This document shows positions 667 through 11,248 of a DNA stretch of 14,942 bases, one piece after another; position 1 is the first letter of the stretch, and every line of letters starts with the position of its first letter. A program made the position numbers and the translations under genes. Location of the stretch: positions 1-14,942 of the forward strand of contig QMNM01000006.1 in NCBI GenBank assembly GCA_003647765.1, read 5' to 3'. The notes under the pieces were generated by a model. The model was not told the origin of the DNA. It ran no database searches and was given only the letters and a program-made list of their open reading frames with translations. This stretch comes from Candidatus Cloacimonadota bacterium (GTDB taxonomy: Bacteria > Cloacimonadota > Cloacimonadia > JGIOTU-2 > B8-G9).

Positions 667-1743
667 ATGCCAAGTTATAGAATATTGGTTATAAATCCAG
701 GTTCAACTTCTACAAAAATAGCAGTATTTCAAGACGATAATGAAATATTCAACAGGACAATAAAACATTCTCCTGAACAACTTACTGGCTATACAAAAGT
801 AATTGACCAGTATGAGTTTCGCAGAAAAATTATTGAAGAGCAATTAAAGGAGAATAATATTGATTTAAGAAGTTTTGATTCAGTCGTAGGAATTGGTGGA
901 CTTACCAGACCTGTGGAAAGCGGCACATATATAATAAATAAAAAGATGCTTGATGATTTAGCTGATAAATCTATTTGGGGAATGTCTCATGCTTCGGCTC
1001 TTGGTGCTTATATTGCAAAATCTATATCTGATGAATTAAATATACCTGCATTTATTGTTGACCCTATAAGTGTTAATGAATTTGATGATATTGCTCGTAT
1101 TTCTGGAGTCGTAGAAATAGAAAGGAAATGTCTATCTCATGCATTGAATATTAAAGCAGTTGGACGAGAGCTTGCACAAACACTCTGTAAGAATTTTAAT
1201 GAATGTAATTTCATAGCTGCTCATTTAGGTGGAGGAATAACAATATCGCCTTTAAGAAAAGGAAGAATTATAGACGCAAATAATGCAATGTTAGGAATGG
1301 GACCTTTTTCTCCTCAAAGAGCTGGTGCATTGCCAATAGGTGGAGTAATTGATTTATGTTTCTCAGGTAAATATACGAAAAAAGAATTGGAACGAAAATT
1401 TGTAAAAGAAAGTGGTTTTATTGCATATCTTGGCACAGATGACGGAATTGCAATTGTTAAGGAAATTGAGAAAAATAATAAAAAATTCATAACAATAGTT
1501 CAAGCAATGGCTTATCAAATAGCTAAGGAAGTAGGAGCATGTGCTACGGTTCTAAAAGGTAAAGTTGATGCTATTTACTATACAGGCGGTCTGGCAAATA
1601 ATAAATATTTGATGAAATGGATAAAAGAGCGAACAGAATTTATTGCACCAATTTACATATATCCTGGTGAAAAAGAGATGTATGCAATGGCTCAGGGTGT
1701 AATTCGTGTGCTTAAAGGAGAAGAACAAGCAAAGGAATATTAA
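667..1743 (+). CDS. buk: Butyrate kinase family protein, copy 1 (divergent)
   Basis: An ASKHA-fold acyl kinase that interconverts butyryl- (or branched acyl-) phosphate plus ADP with the acid plus ATP at the end of fermentation. Its 358 residues match the usual butyrate kinase length. Visible are the N-terminal phosphate loop NPGSTSTK (10-17), SHASALGA (107-114), the AHLGGG motif (185-190), GPFSPQRAG (212-220), LCFSGKYTK (230-238), TGGLA (306-310) and YPGEKEM (332-338). The start ATG has AGGAG at 655-659, 7 nt upstream. It is a paralogue of the next gene. Odd points: the family's GRGGL motif reads GIGGL here (Ile76), GEHASNLGA reads GMSHASALGA, and the 'SVGAH.KG' stretch reads 'TISPLRKG'. A change of substrate, or weak activity, is therefore possible. 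No phosphate butyryltransferase lies next to it. Confidence 0.88.
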   Translation: MPSYRILVINPGSTSTKIAVFQDDNEIFNRTIKHSPEQLTGYTKVIDQYEFRRKIIEEQLKENNIDLRSFDSVVGIGGLTRPVESGTYIINKKMLDDLADKSIWGMSHASALGAYIAKSISDELNIPAFIVDPISVNEFDDIARISGVVEIERKCLSHALNIKAVGRELAQTLCKNFNECNFIAAHLGGGITISPLRKGRIIDANNAMLGMGPFSPQRAGALPIGGVIDLCFSGKYTKKELERKFVKESGFIAYLGTDDGIAIVKEIEKNNKKFITIVQAMAYQIAKEVGACATVLKGKVDAIYYTGGLANNKYLMKWIKERTEFIAPIYIYPGEKEMYAMAQGVIRVLKGEEQAKEY

Positions 1744-1917
1744 GCAAAGCATTTTGATACAGCATTTCACAGAAAATTTCATATAAATTTAAATAAATTT
1801 TATACATCGTCAATTACAAGCTTATGAGAAAAATCCGAGTTTATATCTGTTATTGTGGTAAAAATGAATGCAGTAATGTTATGTTTAGATAACAAAAATA
1901 ATCGTGAGGTATGATTT

Positions 1918-3078
1918 ATGTGTAATAATAATGCTTCATCAGAATTGAATGAGAAGGGATATTCTCTAAAAAAATATAAGATTCTGGCTGTAAATCCAGG
2001 TTCTACTTCCACAAAAATAAGTGTATTTGAGAACGAGAAATGTCTAGTTTCAGAAGAAATTCAGCATCCGCAAGATGTAACACAGAAATTTGAGAAAATT
2101 ATTGACCAACACGAATTTAGAAAGAATCTTGTTCTAGAAGCTCTTAAAAAGAAAAAAATCAACATACATGATTTAGATGCTATTGTTGGAAGAGGTGGCT
2201 TGATTTATCCTGTTAAAAGCGGAGCTTATTATGTTAATCAGCAAATGATAGATGACTTGAAAGCAGCTGTTCAGGGCGAGCATGCATCTAATTTAGGAGC
2301 TATTATCGCGGCAGATATAAGAGATGATATTTTCAAAGGAACAGGCAGGAAAATTCCTGCGCTCATAGTTGATTCAGTTGTTGTAGATGAGATTGAGGAT
2401 ATTTGCAGGATAACTGGATTTAAGGAGATAAGAAGAAAAGCAATTTCTCACGCACTTAGTCAAATAGCATCCGTAAAGAAATTTGCAGAAGAGAGAGGAG
2501 TGTCATATAAGAAGTTGAATCTAATAGTTGCTCATCTTGGCGGTGGAATATCTGTTGGTGCGCATCATAAAGGAAAGTATTGTGATGTTAATAATGCATT
2601 GAATGGAGAGGGACCATTCACGCCAGAAAGAAGCGGCTCTTTGCCTGTTGGACAATTGATTGAAATGTGTTATTCAGGCAAATACACACTTCAAGAGATG
2701 AAATTGAAAAATAAAGGAAAAGGTGGACTTATTGCTTTATTAGGCACTTCTGATTTCCGAGAGGTTGAACAAAGAATAAAATCAGGAGATAAACAAGCAA
2801 TACTTGTTTTTCAAGCTATGGCTTATAGAATTGCAAGAGAGATATGTTCTCTTATTCCAGCATTTGAAGGAGAGAAACTTGACCAAATTATTCTTACAGG
2901 TGGATTGGCTCGTGCTAATATATTTGTTAATGAAATCAAAAGCAGACTAAAAGCATTAGATGTTGGGATAACTGTATATCCCGGTGAAAATGAGATGGCA
3001 GCTTTACGAGATGGTGCATTAAGAGTTTTACAAGGTAAAGAACAAGCAAGAGAATATTTCGGCAAGATAATGAAGTAG
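1918..3078 (+). CDS. buk: Butyrate kinase, copy 2 (canonical)
   Basis: Same reaction as the preceding paralogue: reversible transfer between acyl-phosphate and ATP, yielding butyrate or isobutyrate and energy. Its 386 residues include about 19 extra, hydrophilic residues before the family start 'KYKILAVNPGSTSTK'. All signature motifs are intact: GRGGL (91-95, with Arg92), GEHASNLGA (120-128), AHLGGGISVGAH (205-216), GEGPFTPERSG (230-240), CYSGKYT (251-257) and YPGENEM near the C-terminus. GAGGT at 1905-1909 lies 8 nt before the ATG and supports this start. The 174-nt gap from copy 1 may hold a weak promoter (TTGTGG 1853-1858, TGTTAT 1877-1882), so it need not be one transcript with copy 1. 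The MeaB-type gene begins within 10 nt of its stop, which suggests co-expression. Confidence 0.93.
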   Translation: MCNNNASSELNEKGYSLKKYKILAVNPGSTSTKISVFENEKCLVSEEIQHPQDVTQKFEKIIDQHEFRKNLVLEALKKKKINIHDLDAIVGRGGLIYPVKSGAYYVNQQMIDDLKAAVQGEHASNLGAIIAADIRDDIFKGTGRKIPALIVDSVVVDEIEDICRITGFKEIRRKAISHALSQIASVKKFAEERGVSYKKLNLIVAHLGGGISVGAHHKGKYCDVNNALNGEGPFTPERSGSLPVGQLIEMCYSGKYTLQEMKLKNKGKGGLIALLGTSDFREVEQRIKSGDKQAILVFQAMAYRIAREICSLIPAFEGEKLDQIILTGGLARANIFVNEIKSRLKALDVGITVYPGENEMAALRDGALRVLQGKEQAREYFGKIMK

Positions 3079-5400: not shown

Positions 5401-6429
5401 ATGAAGAATATTAAATTAGGGCTAATAGGTTGTGGGCGAATATCAACAAAGCATTTTGAAGCAATAGAAAAGATAGAAAATGCTGAAATTATTGCTTGCT
5501 GTGATATTATAAAACAAAAAGCAGAAGAAAAAGCAAATCAATTCAATATTAAAGAGATATACGAAAATTATAAAGAGATGTTGGACAATGTGAAAATGGA
5601 TGCTGTTATTATAGCAACTCCAAGTGGAATACATCCGGACATTGGTATAGATGTCGCAAAGAAAAAAATCAATGTTATAACAGAAAAGCCGATGGCTACT
5701 TCATTGGATAAAGCAGACAAATTGATTTATGCGTGTGATGAAAATAAAGTTAATCTATTTGTTGTTAAGCAGAATAGATTAAATCCACCTATCAGATTAT
5801 TAAAGAATGCTATTGATAAAGGTCGTTTTGGCAGAATTTATAGTGGAAGTATAATTGTTCATTGGACTCGTCCACAAGCTTACTATGATATGGCTGATTG
5901 GCGTGGAACCTGGGAATTTGATGGTGGAGCATTTCTAAATCAAGCGAGTCATTATTTTGACCTATTATATTGGCTGATTGGACCAGTAGAAAGTGTAATG
6001 GCTATTACAAATACCATAGCTCATACAATAGAAGTTGAAGATCAAGGTGTCGGTATAATAAAATTTCGTAATGGAGCTCTTGGTAGTGTAGATGTATCTA
6101 TGAATACTTACCCAAAGAATCTTGAGGGCTCAATCACTATAATCGGAGAAAAAGGAACTGTCAAAGTAGGTGGTATTGCTGTGAATAAAATAGAAGTGTG
6201 GGAATTTAAAGATTATAATGATGATGACAAGTATGTATTTGAAGCAGATACTAATCCATTAGATGTTTATGGATTCGGGCATTTGGGATATTTGAAAAAT
6301 GTTATAGATGTCTTGAATGGCAAAGCCAAAGCGTCCACAGATGGACGAAGTGGAAGAAAGTCCTTAGAAATTATATTAGCAATGTATCGTTCAGCAAAAA
6401 CAGGAAAAATAGTGAATTTGCCTTTGTAA
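5401..6429 (+). CDS. wlbA: Gfo/Idh/MocA oxidoreductase, WlbA/WbpB-like UDP-N-acetylglucosaminuronate 3-dehydrogenase
   Basis: This probably oxidises C3 of UDP-GlcNAcA with NAD(+), an early step to UDP-2,3-diacetamido-2,3-dideoxy-glucuronic acid, an O-antigen sugar. In the 342-residue protein the Rossmann motif is GLIGCGRISTKH (7-18) and the catalytic-site EKP is at 95-97 (Lys96). The substrate domain has the WlbA-type sequence VVKQNR (121-126), HWTRPQAYYD (154-163), WRGTWEFDGGAFLNQASHY (167-185, His184), then TYPKNLEGSITIIGEKGTVKVGG. These long matches to the WlbA/WbpB pattern, as I know it, are why I go beyond the general family name. The usual partners (UDP-GlcNAc 6-dehydrogenase, aminotransferase, acetyltransferase, epimerase) are not in the window. 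It shares the inverted-repeat-bounded segment with the GT2 gene. Confidence 0.85.
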   Translation: MKNIKLGLIGCGRISTKHFEAIEKIENAEIIACCDIIKQKAEEKANQFNIKEIYENYKEMLDNVKMDAVIIATPSGIHPDIGIDVAKKKINVITEKPMATSLDKADKLIYACDENKVNLFVVKQNRLNPPIRLLKNAIDKGRFGRIYSGSIIVHWTRPQAYYDMADWRGTWEFDGGAFLNQASHYFDLLYWLIGPVESVMAITNTIAHTIEVEDQGVGIIKFRNGALGSVDVSMNTYPKNLEGSITIIGEKGTVKVGGIAVNKIEVWEFKDYNDDDKYVFEADTNPLDVYGFGHLGYLKNVIDVLNGKAKASTDGRSGRKSLEIILAMYRSAKTGKIVNLPL

Positions 6430-6448: not shown

Positions 6449-6572
6449 TTAGACGCGAACTAAACGCTGACTTTACAAACTCATCACAAAAGATTTAATC
6501 TATTAAAAGGATAAAAATGTTCGCGTAAGTTCGCATAGTTCGTATAAGTTCGCGATTGCAATGTTCGCGATT
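6449..6572 (-). repeat. Right arm of the inverted repeat pair
   Basis: Reverse-complement partner of 4098-4220, with 108 of 123 aligned positions identical by hand count. The CGCGAACTTA-like tandem part now lies at its right, outer end (about 6518-6572). It stops 16 nt before the TTG start of the GGPP synthase gene, so it forms nearly all of that gene's upstream region. Confidence 0.85.
6472..6499 (+). promoter_or_regulatory. Candidate promoter for the ether-lipid operon, inside the right repeat arm
   Basis: TTTACA (6472-6477), a 16-nt spacer and TTTAAT (6494-6499) each differ from the sigma70 consensus at one position. It points toward the GGPP synthase gene 90 nt downstream. The left arm conserves the equivalent on the minus strand (TTTACA 4197-4192, TTGAAT 4175-4170), pointing outward. 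Hexamers like these arise by chance in AT-rich DNA, so the call is tentative. Confidence 0.3.
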
Positions 6573-6588: not shown

Positions 6589-7476
6589 TTGTTATTACAA
6601 AAATATTTTGATGTTAGAAAAAAGATGATCAATCAAGCTCTTGATAAGTATATAGGAGCAGAAGATAATTATCCGCCTGAATTGTATCAAGCGATGCGAT
6701 ATTCTACACTTGATGGTGGAAAGCGATTGCGTCCTATTTTGATGATGGCAGTTTATGAAATGATAAAAGGCAAAAATAATCTCCGTTCATTAAAAGTAGT
6801 ACTGCCGCCTGCTTGTGCATTAGAGATGGTTCATACTGCTTCTCTTATACATGATGATTTGCCTTTTATTGACGACTCCGATGAAAGACGAGGCAAGCCA
6901 AGCTGTCATAAAAAATTTGGTAATGCCATTGCTATCCTTGCTGGAGACGCTTTACTTACAAAAGCATTTGGAATTATGTTAGAACCAAATAATAAGAAAA
7001 AAGCCATCATCTGTCTTGATATTCTAACAAAATCTATTGCAACCAGAGGTATGATTTCTGGGCAAGTAGTTGACATTTTAGTTACAAGGAAAAAAGCCAA
7101 GCTGCATATGCTACGAGATATTCATATCAAAAAAACTGGCTCATTGCTAAAAGCTGCTGTATTGATTGCCTGTGTATTAGCAGATGCAGAAGAACAACAA
7201 ATGAACGCTCTTGCTGATTTTGCTATCAATATTGGACTTGCATATCAGATTATTGATGATATTTTAGATGAAGTTGGTGCTAATGAAATCCTGCAAAAAG
7301 AAACAGGTGAAGATGAGAGAAATGAAAAGGTAACTTATCCTGTTTTGATAGGACTTGAAGAATCACAAAAACAAGCAATAAAATTGCTAAAAGATGCCAA
7401 TAATCTTATCAAAAATATGGATAATAATATAGTGCTAATGGAATTTGTAAAAATGATTAGAGATAGGATGCCATAG
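6589..7476 (+). CDS. Geranylgeranyl diphosphate synthase (trans-polyprenyl synthase)
   Basis: Condenses IPP with allylic diphosphates, here most likely to the C20 chain GGPP. In the 295-residue product the substrate motif GGKRLRP is at 43-49, the first Asp-rich motif DDLPFIDD with the two-residue bacterial insertion (DDxxxxD) is at 89-96, RRGKP follows at 100-104, and the second Asp-rich motif DDILD is at 223-227. The residue five before the first Asp-rich motif is Ala84 (TASLIHDD), a small residue as in CrtE-type GGPP synthases, where farnesyl synthases usually have an aromatic. This favours C20 or longer. It is first of three closely spaced prenyl-lipid genes (33 nt to the next start). The same enzyme could also feed quinone or carotenoid synthesis. 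The TTG start is chosen from its Shine-Dalgarno site. Confidence 0.88.
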   Translation: MLLQKYFDVRKKMINQALDKYIGAEDNYPPELYQAMRYSTLDGGKRLRPILMMAVYEMIKGKNNLRSLKVVLPPACALEMVHTASLIHDDLPFIDDSDERRGKPSCHKKFGNAIAILAGDALLTKAFGIMLEPNNKKKAIICLDILTKSIATRGMISGQVVDILVTRKKAKLHMLRDIHIKKTGSLLKAAVLIACVLADAEEQQMNALADFAINIGLAYQIIDDILDEVGANEILQKETGEDERNEKVTYPVLIGLEESQKQAIKLLKDANNLIKNMDNNIVLMEFVKMIRDRMP

Positions 7477-7508
7477 AATTAAAACAATGATTGTTTCTTC
7501 CTGACCAA

Positions 7509-8381
7509 ATGAAAATTAAACAAGCTATAACTAAAATTCTGGCAATTTTGCAACTCATTCGCCCTGTAAATATTTTGGTTATAGCATTAACAACATTTTT
7601 TGGAATAGCTTATCATACAGAGATTATACATTGGAATATAGTAATACCGACAGTGCTTGTACCTGTATTCATTGCGGCTGGTGGATTTGCTATTAACGAT
7701 TTCTTTGACTTACAAATAGATAAAGCAAATAAAATAAGCCGTCCTTTAGTAACAGGAAAATTATCCATTAATCTTGTTTATGGCTTTTCTATTTGCGCAT
7801 TTATCATCGGTATTATTTGCACTATTTTTATTAAAAATATTGAAATGATTTTATTAGCTGGGTTAAATGCTATTCTACTTTACTATTACGCAAAAAGTTG
7901 GAAAAAGATAGCTCTTTTAGGCAATTTTATAGTATCATTTGCTTGTGCTTGTACTTTTATGTTTGGAGCATTTGCCAATAGCAATTTAAAAAATGTCTGG
8001 ATTATCTCTATATTAGCATTTTTTTACACTTTCATCAGAGAATTGGTCAAAGACGCAGAAGATATTGAAGGTGATAGGAAATACAATGCAAAAACATTAC
8101 CTATTATTATTGGCAACAGAAGAACTATTATTTTTTCCATAATATTATGTATCCCTATATTTTTTTTTTCTTATTTAGGGTTTCATCTGAAATTATATGA
8201 CTTATTCATATTTTTAGCAATTATTATGTTTATATTATTTTCAATGTATTTATTATTACACCTTATTATTATTGATAGTAATAAAAAAGATTTTCATAGA
8301 GTTCAGAGATTAATGAAGTTGAATATTTTGCTATCATTAATAATATTATGGATTGGACAATGGGGACATATCAATATTTAA
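7509..8381 (+). CDS. UbiA-family prenyltransferase, probable digeranylgeranylglyceryl phosphate (DGGGP) synthase
   Basis: An integral membrane prenyltransferase with nine or so hydrophobic segments and two Asp-rich Mg-diphosphate motifs: NDFFDLQID (63-71) and KDAEDIEGD (181-189). SRPLVTGKLS (77-86) after the first motif is typical of the DGGGP-synthase/(S)-2,3-di-O-geranylgeranylglyceryl phosphate branch and of related UbiA proteins. Its position, between GGPP synthase and GGGP synthase and overlapping the latter, is the main reason to propose transfer of the second geranylgeranyl chain onto GGGP. Alternatives are a chlorophyll-, heme- or quinone-type UbiA enzyme, but no genes of those pathways are nearby. 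The length is 290 residues from ATG 7509. A TTG at 7491 in frame is less likely because it adds only six residues and neither start has a strong Shine-Dalgarno site. Confidence 0.82.
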   Translation: MKIKQAITKILAILQLIRPVNILVIALTTFFGIAYHTEIIHWNIVIPTVLVPVFIAAGGFAINDFFDLQIDKANKISRPLVTGKLSINLVYGFSICAFIIGIICTIFIKNIEMILLAGLNAILLYYYAKSWKKIALLGNFIVSFACACTFMFGAFANSNLKNVWIISILAFFYTFIRELVKDAEDIEGDRKYNAKTLPIIIGNRRTIIFSIILCIPIFFFSYLGFHLKLYDLFIFLAIIMFILFSMYLLLHLIIIDSNKKDFHRVQRLMKLNILLSLIILWIGQWGHINI

Positions 8382-9100
8382 AGAATGTAATATCAGAAAA
8401 AGGTGCTGGATATTTATGCTTGATTGATCCAGATAATCATAACACTGAGCAATCAGTAAAAATCGCAACTACTTGTGAATATTGTGATGTAGATGCTTTA
8501 CTTGTTGGTGGGAGTATTATGTTCAAAAACAAATTTGAGCATAATCTACGGAAAATCAAAGAATCTGTCAATATACCTGTAATTATTTTTCCTGGAATAT
8601 TTCATAGCATATTTCCTTGTGCTGATGCTTTACTTATGTTAAGTATGATGAGTAGTCGTAATCCTGACCTATTGATAGGAGAGCAAGTAAAAGCTGCGCC
8701 TCTGATTAAAAGCTACGGATTAGAGACCATCCCTACTGCATATTTATTGATTGAGTCAGGTTCATTAACCTCTGTGCAATATATGTCTCATTCATTTCCG
8801 ATACCAAGAGCAAAAACAGCTATTGCTGTAGCTCACTCTCTTGCGGCTCAATACTTGGGAATGAAACTTATCTATTTAGAAGCAGGAAGTGGTGCAAAGA
8901 ACTCTGTCCCAAATAAGATGATCCGTGAAGTGAAAAATAATGTTGATATACCAATTATTGTAGGTGGTGGCATAAGGACTCCAAAAGAAGCAAAAAAAAA
9001 AGTTGAAAATGGTGCAGATCTTATTGTTACTGGGACTATTATTGAACATAATAATAACGAAGATTTAATTAAAGAATTTTCAAGAGCTATTCATAGGTGA
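8360..9100 (+). CDS. Geranylgeranylglyceryl phosphate synthase (GGGP synthase, TIM barrel)
   Basis: Links GGPP to sn-glycerol-1-phosphate, the step that sets archaeal lipid stereochemistry. The 246-residue TIM barrel shows all family motifs: LIDPD (21-25), LLVGGS (47-52), the SRNPDLLIGEQ segment (99-109), AYLLIESGSLTSV (127-139), YLEAGSGA (172-179), the phosphate-binding VGGGIRT (201-207) and VTGT (223-226). The sequence resembles the group II enzymes of Bacteroidetes and some archaea more than the Bacillus PcrB type. The start ATG 8360 overlaps the UbiA gene by 22 nt and has GGATTGG just before it; it places LIDPD at the usual distance from the N-terminus. ATG 8348 is a possible alternative. 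The overlap points to translational coupling with the UbiA gene. Glycerol-1-phosphate dehydrogenase is not in the window. Confidence 0.92.
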   Translation: MGTYQYLKNVISEKGAGYLCLIDPDNHNTEQSVKIATTCEYCDVDALLVGGSIMFKNKFEHNLRKIKESVNIPVIIFPGIFHSIFPCADALLMLSMMSSRNPDLLIGEQVKAAPLIKSYGLETIPTAYLLIESGSLTSVQYMSHSFPIPRAKTAIAVAHSLAAQYLGMKLIYLEAGSGAKNSVPNKMIREVKNNVDIPIIVGGGIRTPKEAKKKVENGADLIVTGTIIEHNNNEDLIKEFSRAIHR

Positions 9101-10660: not shown

Positions 10661-11248
10661 ATGAAATATGTTAAATTAGCTATATTCTCAATAATAATTT
10701 TAGTAGTACTATTTTCGTTCGGATTTTTTGCCACAAATATATTGTTAAAAATATTTACGAGGCATGGCGACGAAGTAATGGTGCCTGATTTAATTGGTAA
10801 AAATTTTAAGGAAGCCAGAAATGATTTGATAAAATATGGATTATATATTGAAAAAACAGGTGAAGATTTTAGTAATGAGATTTTGAAGGGCTATATTATT
10901 TCACAGAAACCATCACCAAATATTCATATAAAAAAAGGAAAAACAATAAAGGTTATTGTTAGTAAAGGAAAAGCAATGACCGAAGTTCCCATCCTGGATA
11001 ATCTTACAATAACAGAAGCAAAAATAAGATTACAAAATGTTAAGCTGCGATTAGGAAAAATTAGTTATGCGTATTCCAATGATATTGGCAAGAATAAAGT
11101 TATTTATAGTCAGCCAATTGCTGGAGCCAAAGTGGCAAAAAATTCTATGGTAGAACTCATTATCAGTTTAGGCAAACTACCTACAATTACAGATAAAAAA
11201 GATATGTATAAATCATTATTAGAGGATGCATTAAAAGATACAAATTAG
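10661..11248 (+). CDS. Membrane-anchored protein with two PASTA domains
   Basis: A 195-residue protein with one N-terminal transmembrane helix (about 5-30) that would place the rest outside the cytoplasm. Two PASTA repeats follow: residues 39-103, starting EVMVPDLIGKNFKEA and ending IKVIVSKG, and residues 106-172, starting TEVPILDNLTITEAK and ending VELIISLG. PASTA domains bind peptidoglycan stem peptides or muropeptides in kinases and penicillin-binding proteins. Here there is no kinase or transpeptidase domain, so a wall-binding or scaffold role is likely (inference). GAGGTG at 10651-10656, inside the end of rsmB, is a good ribosome site, and the ATG directly follows the rsmB stop. Co-translation with rsmB is likely. 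The gene converges on the phosphate transporter gene with only 34 nt between stops and no clear terminator. Confidence 0.9.
   Translation: MKYVKLAIFSIIILVVLFSFGFFATNILLKIFTRHGDEVMVPDLIGKNFKEARNDLIKYGLYIEKTGEDFSNEILKGYIISQKPSPNIHIKKGKTIKVIVSKGKAMTEVPILDNLTITEAKIRLQNVKLRLGKISYAYSNDIGKNKVIYSQPIAGAKVAKNSMVELIISLGKLPTITDKKDMYKSLLEDALKDTN

Follow-up and report, generated by a model that had tools for sequence, protein, structure and literature searches.

The three genes at positions 6589 to 9100 of the window, by which we mean the whole stretch of 14,942 nt analysed here, very probably encode the core enzymes for archaeal-type diether lipids in a bacterium of the phylum Candidatus Cloacimonadota. 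The original prediction, that a bacterium here carries an archaeal-type ether-lipid operon, is supported by protein matches along with active-site and chain-length residues, and GGGP synthase (GGGPS) and DGGGP synthase (DGGGPS) are the best assignments for two of the products. That the gene class was already known was also correct. The gene pair and its arrangement have been published for this phylum by Villanueva et al. (2020; PMC7852524), who reported co-localised GGGPS and DGGGPS genes in Ca. Cloacimonetes, with a geranylgeranyl reductase (GGR) present and egsA and carS missing. New here are the pairing counts and the reductase co-occurrence over 124 genomes of the phylum, and the locus extends the published case to another family.

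In the pathway that we propose from homology and residues, the first enzyme would make C20 GGPP, GGGPS would join it to glycerol 1-phosphate (G1P), and the UbiA-type protein would attach another geranylgeranyl chain, yielding DGGGP. Saturation would fall to the GGR encoded elsewhere in the genome; in place of the absent CarS, the bacterial CdsA probably forms CDP-archaeol for head-group attachment. The substrate of GGGPS may be G3P, or G1P from some other route. We counted in favour of the pathway the family matches and residues of the individual enzymes, the presence of GGR and CdsA, and the co-occurrence of GGGPS, DGGGPS and GGR in the phylum; counted against it were the lack of a G1P dehydrogenase and of CarS, and DGGGPS scores below the NCBIfam cut-offs. 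No report of an archaeal-type lipid measured from a cloacimonad was found in the literature examined. A cloacimonad enrichment exists (PMC11129491), and the lipids in that study were analysed for pure cultures.

The operon and its surroundings

All three genes lie on the forward strand, and the 32 nt gap and 22 nt overlap noted between them were borne out by the open reading frame coordinates. The first gene (6589-7476) encodes a type II GGPP-type synthase and starts with TTG at 6589 behind AAAGGAGAG, within a longer in-frame ORF from 6556. The UbiA-superfamily prenyltransferase, predicted to be a DGGGP synthase, follows at 7509-8381; its ATG at 7509 leaves the 32 nt gap, and the earliest possible start is a TTG at 7491. 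The group II GGGPS (8360-9100) overlaps it by 22 nt when read from the ATG at 8360, and a further in-frame ATG is found at 8348. The leader of the operon (6516-6569) holds three AATGTTCGCG-like repeat copies, and GTTCGCGT words are enriched in the genome of the window as well. In the contigs of this genome that were examined (for instance L191, L184 and L177) the dispersed short repeat ACGCATTACGC occurs 79 times, compared with a single copy in 757 kb of sequence from relatives, and words of the CGACTCGAGTTCAAAGAACC type occur about 25 times.

Upstream of the operon the window carries two butyrate kinases, MeaB, a GT2 glycosyltransferase and a WlbA-like oxidoreductase, and downstream RsmB, a PASTA protein, a phosphate transporter with a PhoU-like partner and a GT9 glycosyltransferase. 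The butyrate kinase genes (667-3078) are adjacent and differ from each other, and MeaB follows them. The PASTA protein (10661-11248) adjoins rsmB and stands alone: it has a membrane anchor and two PASTA domains but lacks a kinase domain. As the original prediction stated, no genes for G1P dehydrogenase, geranylgeranyl reductase or CDP-archaeol synthase are found inside the window.

The three operon enzymes

The GGPP-type synthase scores 295 bits with NF045485 and 270 bits with the CrtE model, matches PF00348 and has GGPP/FPP synthases, 7mxz, as its closest PDB chains. Its first Asp-rich motif (DDxxxxD), HTASLIHDDLPFID, carries the two-residue insertion, and the small residue Ala stands at position -5, as in type II GGPP synthases. 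As Ala is found five residues before the motif, a C20 product is expected. The same residue is present in the other operon copies in which the motif was read (one copy was missed by the pattern), and E. coli IspA, a farnesyl synthase, has Tyr here.

For GGGPS, the TIGR01769 score of 216 bits lies above the cut-off of 161.55, and NF003198 gives 293 bits. Like the scores of the other two proteins with NF045485 and PF01040, these values greatly exceed chance. Alignment to the Methanothermobacter enzyme (4mm1, 7e-52, 38% identity over 238 aligned columns) shows the catalytic residues Tyr132, Tyr176 and Glu178 conserved, Ile88 at the proposed limiter position, where Methanothermobacter has Val and Flavobacterium Ile, and Tyr145 at the aromatic-anchor position. 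Here the residues are numbered from the ATG at 8348; their roles are named in PMC9385802 under a different numbering offset. The reactions predicted here are those of the archaeal diether pathway, as represented by the Methanothermobacter GGGPS and the Methanocaldococcus DGGGPS (6m31). The enzyme also resembles the group IIb GGGPS of Bacteroidetes such as Flavobacterium johnsoniae, being a bacterial group II protein with the limiter Ile reported for FjGGGPS, but differs from these in having a co-localised DGGGPS.

The use of heptaprenyl diphosphate, which had been named as a finding that would speak against the operon, is not indicated. PcrB, the heptaprenylglyceryl phosphate synthase of Bacillus, belongs to the same TIM-barrel family but is a group I enzyme that uses C35, and it is very distant from the protein of the window (3vzx, 1.7e-6, as compared with the value above for 4mm1). 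The residues and matches fit a C20, group II enzyme and argue against heptaprenyl use.

The UbiA protein matches PF01040 with 127 bits. Its best models are GGGP geranylgeranyltransferases at about 180 bits, followed by ChlG with 63 bits and by UbiA, heme O and MqnP models with at most 54. Since it stays below the NCBIfam equivalog cut-offs (180 bits where 296 are required, and 182 where 269 are), we claim that it works like a DGGGP synthase, and not that it is a member of the equivalog. The best solved relative is the DGGGPS of M. jannaschii (6m31, 2.8e-36). A UbiA tree that included the E. coli enzymes was affected by long branches, and the assignment is based on the scores instead.

UbiA is a large superfamily and ChlG does give a score, so a quinone, heme or chlorophyll prenyltransferase, with an operon that makes no diether, had to be weighed. 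We find this scarcely credible, as the scores of the DGGGPS-type models are ahead by over 110 bits, BLAST finds the M. jannaschii DGGGPS at 1e-28 but no match to E. coli UbiA, MenA or CyoE, and a UbiA-type gene is co-localised with GGGPS in 63 of the 67 genomes of the phylum that have GGGPS. The original prediction had allowed that the protein might go with quinone or heme enzymes, and it does not. The sole other UbiA protein in the genome, on contig C139, is a distant prenyltransferase, and so no menA-like gene was found in the genome of the window.

Distribution in the phylum

The genome of the window (G000) belongs to the bacterial phylum Ca. Cloacimonadota, and its assembly is 88.8% complete. 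No other genome of the set belongs to its family (f1); a Candidatus Cloacimonadota MAG with 60% GGGPS identity is the nearest named relative, and the DGGGPS is 33-41% identical to those of relatives. In a survey of the phylum GGGPS was present in 67/124 genomes, and in the 63 paired cases DGGGPS is found on the GGGPS contig at a distance of at most 220 bp. The exceptions are G118, with both genes at contig ends, and G054, G058 and G059, which have DGGGPS elsewhere. At all further loci that were read and have DGGGPS beside GGGPS, a GGPP synthase gene comes first in the operon. The GGGPS tree groups by family, which suits vertical descent of the gene within the phylum. According to PMC7852524, a co-localised DGGGPS has within bacteria been reported only from Ca. 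Cloacimonetes.

The locus agrees with that of the published Ca. Cloacimonetes MAGs in phylum, in the gene pair, in a polyprenyl synthase gene on the same scaffold, in the presence of GGR and in the missing egsA/araM and carS. It differs in that the genome stands alone in its family, in the lack of the usual CpsB-like 3' gene and in PlsY, which was not found. In most families (loci L111-L130) GGGPS is followed by PF19567 CpsB_CapC, a PF01370 epimerase, a methyltransferase and a PF03706 flippase-like gene, all of which are absent from the window.

On the 5' side, the WlbA-like gene (5401-6429, forward strand), a Gfo/Idh/MocA oxidoreductase, precedes the GGPP synthase gene in families f1, f7 and f12; seven loci besides that of the window have it in this position. 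We considered this oxidoreductase as a hidden G1P dehydrogenase and rejected it, its closest solved relatives being 3q2k/3q2i (1e-112), which we take to be WlbA, sugar-nucleotide enzymes. It is probably a surface-sugar gene and not an enzyme of the lipid core.

These neighbours raise the question whether GGGPS and DGGGPS, instead of bulk membrane lipids, make minor isoprenoid glycerolipids that serve a special role, for example as anchor of a surface glycan, with the CpsB/CapC-like and accompanying genes and the WlbA-like gene sharing in that role. The conservation of the four 3' genes in most families and of the WlbA-like gene on the 5' side in three agrees with this, as does the precedent of PcrB, which in Bacillales makes a minor ether lipid. 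We regard it as possible but rather unlikely, since the full set from GGPP over GGGP and DGGGP to GGR exceeds what a minor lipid needs, the CpsB/CapC-like and other 3' genes of relatives are missing from the window, and the enzymes of relatives feed the formation of archaeal-type phosphatidylglycerol in E. coli (PMC7852524).

G1P supply and CDP-archaeol formation

It had been proposed to search the genome for EgsA/AraM, geranylgeranyl reductase and CarS. Only the reductase turned up; a family search of the 88.8% complete assembly gave no candidate for G1P dehydrogenase, and CarS was not found in it either. Of the 67 genomes in the phylum that have GGGPS, not one shows a strong match to the G1P dehydrogenase family. 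Matches to PF13685 above 60 bits were seen only in G060, G038 and G039 (3/124 genomes), and we do not accept them as G1P dehydrogenases of the pathway, as none of these genomes has GGGPS. The genome does encode one copy of a bacterial CdsA (197 bits). Unlike the archaeal diether pathway, the genome of the window therefore lacks EgsA and CarS in our searches and has MEP-type isoprenoid genes, a bacterial CdsA and an outer membrane.

The same gaps have been described for relatives in PMC7852524, where no G1P dehydrogenase was found in four MAGs. The authors note that CdsA is able to take the place of CarS and that G3P is accepted by GGGPS. The enzymes of relatives were active in vitro and in E. 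coli, and GGGP formation was shown for a relative. A 2025 survey of the Black Sea found no Tes in the phylum (PMC11868695).

The geranylgeranyl reductase locus

The GGR lies apart from the operon, on contig C161, and scores 223 bits against a cut-off of 158.8, with a GGR_cat domain. It is followed after 3 nt by a gene for a 211-aa membrane protein of the CTP-transferase superfamily (locus L131, 3270-5240 for the two genes). GGR and this small membrane protein stand in a conserved row that also holds a GT2 glycosyltransferase and a protein recognised by eye, from its sequence, as DHH-type.

Among the 124 genomes 61 have both GGGPS and GGR, 6 GGGPS only, 7 GGR only and 50 neither. GGR is hence present in 61/67 genomes with GGGPS and 7/57 without (Fisher 3e-20, a value that ignores the relatedness of the genomes). 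Three of the six genomes with GGGPS only are less than 65% complete. The family of the 211-aa protein is present in 108/124 genomes. At two sampled loci of the GGGPS-less family f3 the gene order is the same and the CTP-transferase-type and GT2 genes are kept, but GGR is absent.

No family in Pfam or NCBIfam names this genome's copy of the membrane protein, and 9 of 18 members of its family match PF01148 (CTP_transf_1). The closest structures to its confident model (pLDDT 90) are 4q2e, a CDP-diglyceride synthetase (Z 8.5, rmsd 6.5 over 174), and CarS 5guf (Z 8.0, rmsd 3.4 over 103). Between helical membrane proteins a Z of about 8 makes this resemblance to CdsA/CarS no more than suggestive. 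The protein probably acts as a CTP-dependent lipid kinase of the SEC59/DGK1 type. We do not favour it as a dedicated CDP-archaeol synthase, because f3 has the gene without GGGPS.

With a CTP-transferase-type protein and a GT2 glycosyltransferase as phylum-wide neighbours, the GGR could act on another isoprenoid. It might serve a dolichol-like sugar carrier in place of archaeol: GGR would saturate a polyprenol, the SEC59/DGK1-like protein would phosphorylate it with CTP and the GT2 protein would load a sugar, and the diether would stay unsaturated. The three genes adjoin in most families, the CTP-transferase-type protein shows the CdsA/CarS-like fold and PF01148 matches given above, and archaeal GGRs do reduce dolichol (PMC5088576, PMC10821996). 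On the other hand, f3 keeps the CTP-transferase and GT2 genes without GGR, and GGR tracks GGGPS across the phylum. We hold such a role of GGR in place of saturating the diether to be possible but rather unlikely, and saturation of archaeol is the preferred reading. The archaeol and dolichol-like roles could also be combined.

Ordinary lipids and the outer membrane

In our probe search of the genome of the window 790 kb of unmasked sequence were covered, which is 40% of the assembly, with 26 small contigs masked. In this 40% no match was obtained with any of the 19 probes for lipid A, acylation and the synthesis of fatty acids; of the E. coli housekeeping probes from outside lipid metabolism, about half matched. 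A single fabG match was set aside as a generic short-chain dehydrogenase. It should be noted that the p-value for the depletion of lipid probes (Fisher 2e-5) ignores gene clustering and is not used as proof. PlsY (PF02660), present in 120/124 genomes of the phylum, was not found in the searchable contigs of this 89%-complete genome. LptD is present along with homologues of BamA and MlaE, and together they show that the bacterium has an outer membrane.

The mixed membrane of the original prediction, with diethers beside ordinary lipids, may or may not exist in this species; of the bacterial lipid genes sought, CdsA is present. A loss of acyl-lipid genes in the lineage of the window is possible. 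We do not conclude that the fatty-acid genes are lost, because 40% of the assembly was read with the 26 contigs masked, the genes are clustered, the assembly is 88.8% complete and LptD is present. That the lineage has gone further and lost the fatty-acid phospholipid route, with a cytoplasmic membrane mainly of archaeal-type ether lipids, we consider highly improbable; if true, the membrane of this bacterium would be archaeal instead of mixed.

Implications

Among the puzzles of early evolution, the 'lipid divide' is a central one. Across this phylum the ether-lipid genes and GGR are kept or lost together, and no carrier has a strong match to a G1P dehydrogenase. The questions of where G1P comes from and whether cloacimonads also keep ordinary lipids are thereby sharpened, and the G1P source, the conserved GGR locus and the fatty-acid lipids of family f1 are worth pursuing.
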